Source of the DNA: Thermococcus chitonophagus
Lineage (GTDB): Archaea; Methanobacteriota_B; Thermococci; Thermococcales; Thermococcaceae
Assembly: GCF_002214605.1 (NCBI RefSeq)
Contig: NZ_CP015193.1
Location: forward strand, 496,001 to 560,000
Length of the DNA stretch: 64,000 nt
Direction of reading: 5' to 3'
Below are positions 12,501 through 15,344 of the stretch, piece by piece. Within the stretch, counting starts at the first letter, position 1. The number at the start of each line of letters is the position of its first letter. Under the pieces are notes generated by a model. It saw nothing but the letters and a program-made list of their open reading frames with translations, searched no databases and was not told the DNA's origin. The position numbers were made by a program, and so were the translations under genes.

Positions 12501-15344
12501 TACTCAAAACCCCTAGAGGTGTGGTTTGAAAAGCTCGACTTTAAGAAGAAGAGCCCCGCTAGGGCAGAGATTCCCAGGTTAATACTTCAGTCTGATGAGA
12601 AAGTAATAGCGGCGTTCCTCAGAGGGTTATTTGAGGCGGATGGTCTTGTGAGAGAGGATGGTAGGGTATCACTCTCGACGGCATCTCCAGAGCTTGCTAA
12701 GCAGGTTCAGCTTGCCCTTCTAGGCCTTGGGATTATAGCCAAGGTTAGGGAATCAAACTACCCTGGCAGGTATTCAAAGAACCCAATATATGTTGTCTCA
12801 ATCGTCGATAGCTTGAGTACTGAGCTGTTCTATGACAAAATCGGCTTTATAAGGCCCAGAAAGAAACCAGAATTCAAGTACTCAATTAGCAATGTCAGGA
12901 AGATACCCTTCGGCGGGAAACTGCTGAAGGATCTGTACGAGGACATCAAGAGGAGGGATAGGACTAGGGCAAAAGAGTTCTACAAGAAGCACAGGATTTA
13001 CTTTGCTAATGGTAAGTCGACAAAAGGCGTGAGCTTGTTCATGCTGCGGAGAAATAGCCAGGAATTCCCTGAGCTTGAGAGTCTGGTCAAGAATTACGAG
13101 AGGTACGCATTTGCTAGGGTCACCAGAAAAGAAATTATTAGTGGAGAAGTGTTCCACCTAGAGGTTCCAGAGACTGAGAGCTATGTCGTCAACGGAATAT
13201 TGGTCCACAATGTCAGAAGAGGCGCAAATATGGGCATTCTGGAGATTTGGCACCCAGATATCGAAAAATTCATCCATGCTAAGGAAAAGAACATAGGAAC
13301 GAACGTTTTGGCTAACTTCAACATAAGCGTTGGCATCTGGCAGGACTTCTGGGAGGCCCTTAAGGAGGGCAAGAAGTATCCTCTAATAAACCCCAGGACT
13401 GGTGAGGTCGTTAGGGAGGTAGATCCAAAGTCCCTGTTTGAGGAGCTAGCGTTCATGGCTTGGAGCAAGGCCGACCCAGGAGTCATATTCTTCGACGTGA
13501 TAAACAGGAGAAACGTGCTTAAGGAGGCCAAAGGCGGGCCGATAAGGGCTACCAACCCGTGTGTTGTCGGAAGCACTAAGGTGCTCACGGAGAAAGGAGA
13601 GATTGCAATCGAGGAATTATTCACCTTGGCCAAGAATGAAAACATTGAAAGATTGGAGGTCATTGAGAAAGGAGTCTTAGGAAGGGACGGGGAGGAAGTA
13701 GCGTATCTGAGCCCCATTAAGGTTATAGCCTCAAACGGAAGGCCAGTTGAGGCTTATGTGTGGAAGGTTGGAGTTAAGCCGACAATAAAGATAGTGCTTG
13801 AGGACGGAAGGGAGCTCATAGGAGATGAAGAGCACGAGGTCAAAGTTAACGGTAATTATGTAAAGCTCAAGGAAGTAAAGGAAGGAGATTGTGTTGAAAT
13901 TTACGGCGGTGAATGCAGAAAGGTCATTAGCGTTGAGAAAGCGGGAGAGCAGATGGTCTACACCCTTACCATGAAGGAAGTCCACGAATACGTAGCCAAC
14001 GGAATAATAAGCAAGAACTGTGGAGAAGAGCCTCTCTACGAGTACGAATCCTGTAATCTCGCGAGCATAAACCTCGCGAAGTTCGTTAAGTACGATGAAA
14101 ACGGAAAGCCGTACTTCGACTGGGATGAATACGCTTATGTCATCCAAAAAGTGGCAAAGTACCTCGACAACTCAATAGACGTCAACAAGTTCCCCCTCCC
14201 AGAGATCGATTACAACACCAAGCTCACGAGGAGAATCGGCGTTGGGATGATGGGATTGGCTGATGCATTGTTCAAGCTTGGCATCCCCTACAACAGCGAG
14301 GAAGGCTTCAAGTTCATGCGCAAGGTCACCGAGTACTTAACCTTCTACGCCTACAAGTACTCGATTGAGGCAGCAAAGAAGAGGGGGACCTTCCCGCTCT
14401 ACGAGAAGTCAGGCTATCCAAAGGGCGAACTTCCAGTTGAGGGCTACTATCACCCAGAGATCTGGAACTTACCTTGGGATAAATTAGTTGAGGAAATAAA
14501 GAAGTACGGCGTTAGAAATGCTATGGTAACAACCTGTCCGCCGACAGGCTCTGTCTCAATGATAGCGGACACCTCAAGTGGAATTGAGCCGGTCTATGCT
14601 TTAGTCTACAAGAAATCCGTTACTGTGGGAGAGTTCTACTATGTCGATCCAGTGTTTGAGGCTGAGCTCAGGAGGAGGGGCCTCTACAGTGAAGAACTTT
14701 TGAAGAAGATCAGCGACAACTACGGCTCAGTGCAGGGAATAGAGGAGATCCCTGAGGACATGCAGAAAGTATTTGTGACGGCCTTGGACATCCACTGGCT
14801 CGACCACATCTTGGCCCAAGCAAGCATTCAGATGTGGCTTACAGATTCCGCAAGTAAAACGATCAACATGATAAATGAAGCTACAGTTGAAGATGTGAAG
14901 GCTGCGTACCTCTTCGCGTACTTCCTCGGCTGCAAGGGTGTAACGGTTTACAGGGACGGCTCCCTCTCCGTCCAAGTATATAGTGTTGAGGGTGAGAAGA
15001 AGAGGAGGTTCAAGCCAAAGCCTAGTGAATATGCAAAGAAGATCCTTCTTCAGATAGTAGAGAAGGAACCGTGGATAAAGAACTTCGTGAACATAGATAA
15101 CATACTCAACGGCAGGAGCGAGCAGTTAACTTTTTCACTCCAGCTAAATAAGCCAGCCCCGGCTAAGGTGGAGCAGAGGCAGGCTAAGCCCCAGGAGATT
15201 CCAGAGGAGAAGATAAAGGAGCTTCTTGGGGTTGTTTACTGTCCGGTCTGCTACGAGAAGGAAGGAAAGCTGGTTGAGCTGAAGATGGAGAGCGGCTGTG
15301 CAACCTGTCCAGTTTGTGGATGGAGCAAGTGCGTTATCTCCTGA
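9564..15344 (+). CDS. nrdJ: Class II (adenosylcobalamin-dependent) ribonucleotide reductase with three inteins
   Basis: The precursor has about 1926 residues. Removing three inteins (437, 435 and 153 residues) leaves an enzyme of about 901 residues. It reduces ribonucleotides to deoxyribonucleotides. The N-terminal ATP-cone has [16 protein letters not shown]. The extein core has SACFV (first redox Cys), NPCGE (Asn, radical Cys and Glu; the Cys follows intein 3), SCNLASINL (second redox Cys) and [11 protein letters not shown] (phosphate loop). A C-terminal four-Cys cluster (CPVC ... CATCPVC) may bind zinc. I chose the ATG at 9564, which has GGGGTG 5 nt upstream; a GTG at 9558 is in frame. The CCCTTTTTCTTTCTC run after the stop may end transcription. 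Odd point: the residue after intein 2 is Val. Confidence 0.95.
10533..11843 (+). mobile_element. RNR intein 1 (LAGLIDADG homing-endonuclease intein)
   Basis: This intein has 437 residues. The splice start is CFTGDTRIL (block A, Cys1). The block B region is near [12 protein letters not shown]. Two LAGLIDADG motifs are present, [13 protein letters not shown] and [14 protein letters not shown]. The end is GNGIYTSN, with the usual terminal Asn, although the penultimate residue is Ser rather than His. The +1 extein residue is Ser (SGPVSFMH), suitable for splicing. Both endonuclease motifs keep their acidic residues, so homing activity is plausible. Confidence 0.92.
11907..13211 (+). mobile_element. 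RNR intein 2 (LAGLIDADG intein) with non-canonical +1 valine
   Basis: This intein has 435 residues. It begins [13 protein letters not shown] (Cys1, block A). The endonuclease motifs are [14 protein letters not shown] and [14 protein letters not shown]. It ends [12 protein letters not shown], a standard block G with His-Asn. The join would restore [12 protein letters not shown], a conserved RNR segment, so the boundaries look right. The +1 extein residue is encoded by GTC at 13212-13214 and is Val, whereas the normal mechanism needs Cys, Ser or Thr there. Confidence 0.9.
13560..14018 (+). mobile_element. RNR intein 3 (mini-intein without endonuclease)
   Basis: This intein has 153 residues. 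It begins [13 protein letters not shown] and ends ANGIISKN, followed by Cys of the extein ([10 protein letters not shown]). The length allows only the splicing domain, with no LAGLIDADG motif. The motif GDEEHEVKV fits block B (with H). The insertion lies between the Pro and Cys of the NPCGE active-site motif, so the +1 nucleophile is the radical-forming cysteine itself. Penultimate His is replaced by Lys. Confidence 0.92.

Follow-up and report, generated by a model that had tools for sequence, protein, structure and literature searches.

The window analysed here is a stretch of 64,000 nucleotides from Thermococcus chitonophagus (NCBI RefSeq assembly GCF_002214605.1, contig NZ_CP015193.1, positions 496,001 to 560,000 of the forward strand), and all coordinates are given within it. 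On its forward strand, positions 9558–15344 encode the precursor of NrdJ, the adenosylcobalamin-dependent, class II ribonucleotide reductase (RNR), as a single unbroken open reading frame of 5.8 kb with neither stop nor frameshift. The product is 1928 aa long (NCBIfam NF006207, TIGR02504; PDB 1xje/1xjk) and consists of a 903 aa extein and three inteins. Its place among the class II RNRs is shown by the family match to TIGR02504, the match to PDB 1xje, the catalytic Cys and the loop 2 motif KQGGxRRGA. The carrier genome holds a single copy of the intein-bearing nrdJ, with the same letters in the assembly.

Intein 1 (10533–11843, forward strand, 437 aa, C...SN/S, where the slash marks the splice junction) is canonical, with TKEH in block B, YDI in block F and Ser at +1. 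Intein 2 (11907–13211, forward strand, 435 aa) combines a HINT splicing domain with a nested LAGLIDADG endonuclease and runs from Cys1 to His434-Asn435, and intein 3 (13560–14018, forward strand, C...KN/C) is a mini-intein of 153 aa. At this third site (NP/CGEE), whose Cys+1 is the catalytic Cys of the RNR, two inteins alternate among the Thermococcales: a mini-intein of 153 aa, ending in KN or RN and with Thr at position 4 of block F (F4), in 11 loci (in the range L032–L078), and a larger intein of roughly 362–385 aa, ending in HN and with Asp at F4, in 33 loci. Upstream of nrdJ lies a gene for a membrane protein with a WWDYGNW motif (7220–9403), which by eye we take to resemble an archaeal oligosaccharyltransferase of the AglB/STT3-like type. 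Just downstream is a small gene pair (15568–16297), the second product of which begins MIVIDTSAFSKVL; by eye, the pair looks like a VapBC-type antitoxin with a PIN-domain toxin.

Intein 2 follows KQGG, with the codons GGA GGA / TGT at its N-terminal junction (Cys1, at 11907). Its C-terminal junction reads GTC CAC AAT / GTC AGA AGA GGC GCA AAT ATG GGC, where AAT is Asn435 (13209–13211) and the following GTC is Val+1 (13212–13214, forward strand), the first residue of the C-extein, in RNR loop 2. We searched 94 whole Thermococcales genomes, 84 of which gave an nrdJ match, and 81 further loci were readable at this site. All 81 were empty and encoded Val there, through GTA, GTC, GTG or GTT, and the window gene was the sole carrier of an intein at the loop 2 site among the readable loci. 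Val is a fixed host residue at the intein 2 junction. Because the intein-free loci fix the sequence of the empty site, the boundary of intein 2 is exact. Since the earliest Ser, Thr or Cys past Asn435 is at +30, no shifted junction could give a nucleophile without wrecking the conserved loop, and we excluded a shifted junction on these two grounds. The comparison with related RNR genes had been proposed in a sequence-only reading of this DNA, which had called the boundary sound, as the 81 empty loci bear out, and whose letters for intein 2 (a Cys start, a VVNGILVHN end, then GTC AGA AGA) were right throughout when read codon by codon.

One study of where inteins insert took XXX-[C/S/T]-XXX as the definition of an insertion site (PMC3359363). 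To place Val+1 among other inteins, a small profile of blocks F and G was run over the collected loci and gave 141 distinct intein C-termini, which are neither random nor independent samples and were not selected by their +1 residue. The +1 residue was Thr in 51 of these, Cys in 48 and Ser in 41; the single Val is that of intein 2. That Val replaces Cys, Ser or Thr at +1, as the sequence-only reading had claimed, is thus borne out, with 140 of 141 C-termini on one side and intein 2 as the lone exception. Within the same gene, +1 is Ser at site 1 (8 of 8) and Cys at site 3 (44 of 44).

That reading had taken +1 to be the sole anomaly of intein 2, and here it fell short, as B10, F4 and F13 are altered too. 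In block B, relatives have TxxH or a close variant, with His in 17 of 18 aligned rows (full-length phage helicase, terminase and RecA inteins, intein 1 and the viral intein L185), whereas intein 2 has TYNE (12105–12116, forward strand), in which Glu70 (GAG, 12114–12116) replaces the His of TxNH. At F4 the relatives have xD(L/V/I/F) and intein 2 has FHL, with His417 (CAC, 13155–13157, forward strand) in place of Asp; over the 141 C-termini this position is Asp in 127, Thr in 11, Asn in two and His in intein 2 alone. At F13, intein 2 has TESY against THSF in relatives, with Glu424 (GAG, 13176–13178, forward strand) replacing His. We dropped this last change as an unusual feature; Glu occurs there in 9 of the 141 C-termini and carries little weight. 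Several viral inteins (L196, L212, L215, L205 and similar ones) have Glu, Asn or Pro at F13 and keep Ser, Thr or Cys at +1, so F13 is freely variable.

The rest of the splicing apparatus is retained in intein 2: Cys1, Gly(−1), the HINT domain and the Asn cyclisation residues His434-Asn435 of block G (13206–13211, forward strand), which are intact. Both LAGLIDADG motifs are also present with their catalytic acids (PF14528 LAGLIDADG_3, E 2.5e-23), and the endonuclease looks intact, its activity being putative. The B10 His has been called the most conserved intein residue, and a 2014 review knew of two inteins lacking it: one is a dead pseudogene, and the other, Tko CDC21-1, relies on Lys58 instead (PMC4031507). 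No compensation of the Lys58 type is evident by position in intein 2, where a reading of the sequence gives Asp/Ile at 92/93. The change from His to Glu at B10 needs at least two base changes. Glu70 and His417 together look like an acid/base exchange across the active site, and the sequence is compatible with both function and decay. With changes in blocks B and F on top of that at +1, putting Thr or Cys back in place of Val may not be enough to restore splicing.

An AlphaFold model of intein 2 (pLDDT 82, pTM 0.88) aligned with the solved structures of TliVMA (7qsu/7qss; Z about 33, 3.2–3.5 Å) and PI-PfuI (1dq3; Z 26). The predicted HINT fold matches that of full-length inteins in which HINT is combined with an endonuclease. 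In the predicted secondary structure, the turn that carries His in the control carries Glu70 in intein 2, and the strand that carries the control's Asp carries His417.

We found no close relative of intein 2 in the 94 Thermococcales genomes, where the best matches, at about 29%, were to other RNR inteins; there was one remote match in GTDB contigs and, by a single-sequence search, none in IMG/VR. Full-length relatives were found only at 22–28%, in phages, plasmids and viral contigs. The loop 2 site of NrdJ also holds an intein in two marine viral contigs, L184 and L185 (IMG/VR 3300020220_000129 and 3300020204_003393), where the host residue at +1 is Thr (HN/TRRGAQMG) and the blocks are canonical (TPNH, LDL..NHTY). 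The loop 2 site is therefore open to ordinary splicing chemistry where the host offers Thr. These viral nrdJ genes have a second intein in the same gene, at NPC/..CGEQ. The L184/L185 intein was considered as the direct ancestor of intein 2 and is unsupported in that role; intein 1 and intein 2 both match it at 25%. Pattern scans for loop 2-site inteins in class I NrdA or RRAAK-type NrdJ of viral contigs gave no RNR among the matches listed, and in the phylum of genome G115 (389 genomes) no intein start at the junction was among the matches listed. Codon usage in intein 2 is close to that of the extein (RSCU cosine 0.94; GC3 0.58 vs 0.62), which is consistent with long residence, and a donor with similar usage would look alike. 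By descent, intein 2 belongs to the true endonuclease-bearing inteins, and it has settled before a host Val.

The junction lies at a sensitive point of the host enzyme. Its equivalent in T. maritima NrdJ is K202-Q203-G204-S205/R206-R207, which is loop 2, the specificity loop, and Gln203 of this loop recognises the substrate in an effector-dependent way (PMC4728125). A chain break in loop 2 would be expected to disturb specificity even with the barrel held together. We evaluated selection on the extein by the Nei-Gojobori method against its two nearest relatives (dS 0.49 and 0.47). The dN/dS was 0.035 and 0.021 for the whole extein, 0.038 and 0.029 for the part N-terminal to intein 2, and 0.033 and 0.017 for the C-terminal part. 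A three-point estimate from the distances gave about 0.02 on the carrier branch (dS about 0.33), which is not raised. The carrier branch has nine amino acid changes, none of them close to the junction, and the sister branch has 11. The pattern is that of a working enzyme under strong purifying selection in both halves, and NrdJ probably works, a test that would be without power if intein 2 arrived very recently. These values lend support to the earlier expectation that a functional solution is likely.

The argument that RNR is central to DNA synthesis is weakened by the presence in the same genome of a second RNR, a complete class III NrdD in a frame of 614 aa with no stops. However, NrdJ is kept in 73 of the 74 good-quality genomes of the order, against 45 of 74 for NrdD, so of the two it is NrdJ that is almost never lost. 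In several relatives nrdD is itself interrupted in frame, the family match being split within one long frame, and these insertions are probably inteins (G010:C1:558234-561167, G032:C1:1565501-1568434, G033:C1:1108098-1111997 and G089:C7:19358-22099).

Because Val+1 offers no nucleophile, intein 2 cannot use trans-esterification, and the retention of Val in each of the 81 intein-free alleles implies that Gly-Val is needed at the junction of the mature protein. Type A bacterial intein-like (BIL) domains have no +1 nucleophile and can still splice, for which attack of a freed amine on the thioester has been proposed (PMC4031507; PMC7664689). By analogy with this scheme, we tentatively favour amine ligation as the likeliest single course for intein 2, its chemistry and the order of its steps being those we infer. 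The acyl group of Gly(−1) would first move to Cys1 as a thioester. Asn435 would then cyclise with the assistance of His434, releasing the second half of NrdJ, which would now start with a free Val amine. With the two RNR halves held together on the folded intein and the barrel, the Val amine would attack the Gly thioester and yield a native Gly-Val bond in loop 2, and some cleaved product would be expected alongside. The exchanges of His for Glu at B10 and of Asp for His at F4 would be the accompanying rewiring of the active site, and religation would be helped by growth near 100 °C and by the folding of both host halves around a single loop.

Gly at −1 suits this scheme. Val at +1 gives it no help; Val is β-branched and a poor amine nucleophile. 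The insertion could also be too recent for host selection to register damage, and NrdD could carry dNTP synthesis. BIL domains mostly cleave, with splicing as the minor outcome (PMC4031507, PMC7664689). Loss of the B10 His normally harms the first step of splicing, and inteins without it can splice through compensation, as in Tko CDC21-1 (PMC4031507). The unusual mechanism suggested by the sequence-only reading still stands, but is not wholly without parallel, given the type A BIL precedent (PMC4031507); its three options (an unusual mechanism, slow or incomplete splicing, or an enzyme working as fragments) all survive. A stronger version of the proposal, to which we give less credence than to amine ligation as such, is that intein 2 may be the first natural endonuclease-bearing intein to splice a housekeeping enzyme efficiently although the C-extein offers no side-chain nucleophile. 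The freed α-amine would then do the ligating, at an active site rewired through Glu70 (B10) and His417 (F4), and intein 2 would in effect represent a further splicing class.

Among the alternatives, the one that survives best, as an unlikely but serious contender, is cleavage without ligation. Intein 2 would cut at one or both of its ends, and NrdJ would consist of two non-covalent chains broken in loop 2. The absent +1 nucleophile and the altered blocks B and F favour cleavage, which is the main outcome for BIL domains (PMC7664689), and an RNR split by a homing endonuclease keeps its function according to Friedrich et al. (2007, PNAS), as cited in PMC2814812. The equal purifying selection on both halves fits such an enzyme too. 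Against this, the chain would be interrupted at a point flanked by Gln203 and Arg206/207 (T. maritima numbering), inside the loop that recognises the identity of effector and substrate (PMC4728125), and the junction Val is unchanged, as in a joined loop, although the branch may be too short to tell.

We think it rather less probable that intein 2 is dead or dying, in which case the strain would have no active NrdJ, NrdD would supply its dNTPs, and the changes in blocks B and F would reflect decay after arrival at a site without a nucleophile. The intact NrdD agrees with this, as do the joint deviation of +1 and three catalytic positions and the known case of Arth_1007, an intein pseudogene that has decayed and whose B10 and F4 are likewise changed (PMC3196547). 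Against it are the 5.8 kb frame without stop or frameshift, an extein dN/dS on the carrier branch that is not raised, the preservation of Cys1, His-Asn and both endonuclease motifs, the two or more base changes behind His to Glu, and the near-universal retention of NrdJ in the order.

It is improbable that full splicing takes some other route without a freed α-amine, such as amide attack in the intact precursor aided by His417 or the help of a trans-acting factor, or that the unspliced precursor is itself active. We know of no intein that splices by such a route, and the idea is speculative. In its favour, the Glu70/His417 pair resembles an acid/base exchange, and intein active sites are very tolerant of change (PMC7664689). 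Finally, only one of the 94 Thermococcales genomes carries the intein, which could point to a sequencing error or a mis-set boundary. We consider this very unlikely because every intein-free allele has Val at the position, written in four different codons, and it is further opposed by the distance to the nearest Ser, Thr or Cys and by the alteration of three more, independent catalytic codons.

The +1 nucleophile is generally treated as a requirement for splicing, and intein 2 is a natural case without one in a host enzyme that is conserved and selected. Should it splice, a living cell would be joining the parts of a housekeeping protein without any side-chain nucleophile, and intein tools could lose their Cys/Ser/Thr scar. 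Should it only cleave, the class II RNR would be in two pieces, with the nick in the specificity loop. In the open-access literature that we searched, no natural intein with a non-nucleophilic +1 residue in a conserved enzyme was reported; most papers on inteins from the 1990s and 2000s lie outside that scope, and they or a database may hold an earlier mention.

Measured against the known intein classes, intein 2 has the Cys1 (TGT, 11907), His434-Asn435 and predicted HINT fold of class 1, and departs from it at +1 and B10. It differs from class 2 (a non-nucleophile at position 1, Cys at +1) in having Cys1 and Val+1, and from class 3 (WCT, Cys at F4, no Cys or Ser at position 1) in having His417 at F4 and Cys at position 1. 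Class 1 LAGLIDADG inteins (TliVMA and PI-PfuI; those of phage helicase, terminase and RecA) share with it HINT, Cys1, His-Asn, a nested endonuclease and insertion into a conserved motif, but intein 2 alone is without Cys, Ser or Thr at +1 and has Glu at B10, His at F4 and Glu at F13. The L184/L185 intein has the same insertion point in loop 2 and matches over the whole intein at 25%, and differs in its Thr+1 and canonical blocks B and F.

BIL domains are small, endonuclease-free and found in variable bacterial proteins, whereas intein 2 interrupts a conserved housekeeping enzyme. Type A BILs resemble it in Cys1, the His-Asn end and the missing +1 nucleophile (PMC4031507). It shares their HINT domain as well and departs from them in size and endonuclease (435 aa with PF14528 LAGLIDADG_3), so, given its endonuclease and conserved host, any likeness to a type A BIL in how it works would be no more than an analogy. 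The phage genes-in-pieces RNR, in which a homing endonuclease interrupts the RNR and function is retained in pieces (Friedrich et al. 2007, cited in PMC2814812), consists of separate genes, whereas intein 2 lies within one frame. Tko CDC21-1 is, like intein 2, a Thermococcales intein without the B10 His (PMC4031507), but compensates with Lys58, the equivalent of which was not found in intein 2. The Arth_1007 intein pseudogene shares the altered B10 and F4 (PMC3196547); its exteins are vestigial (66 aa), whereas the host of intein 2 is complete and under selection.
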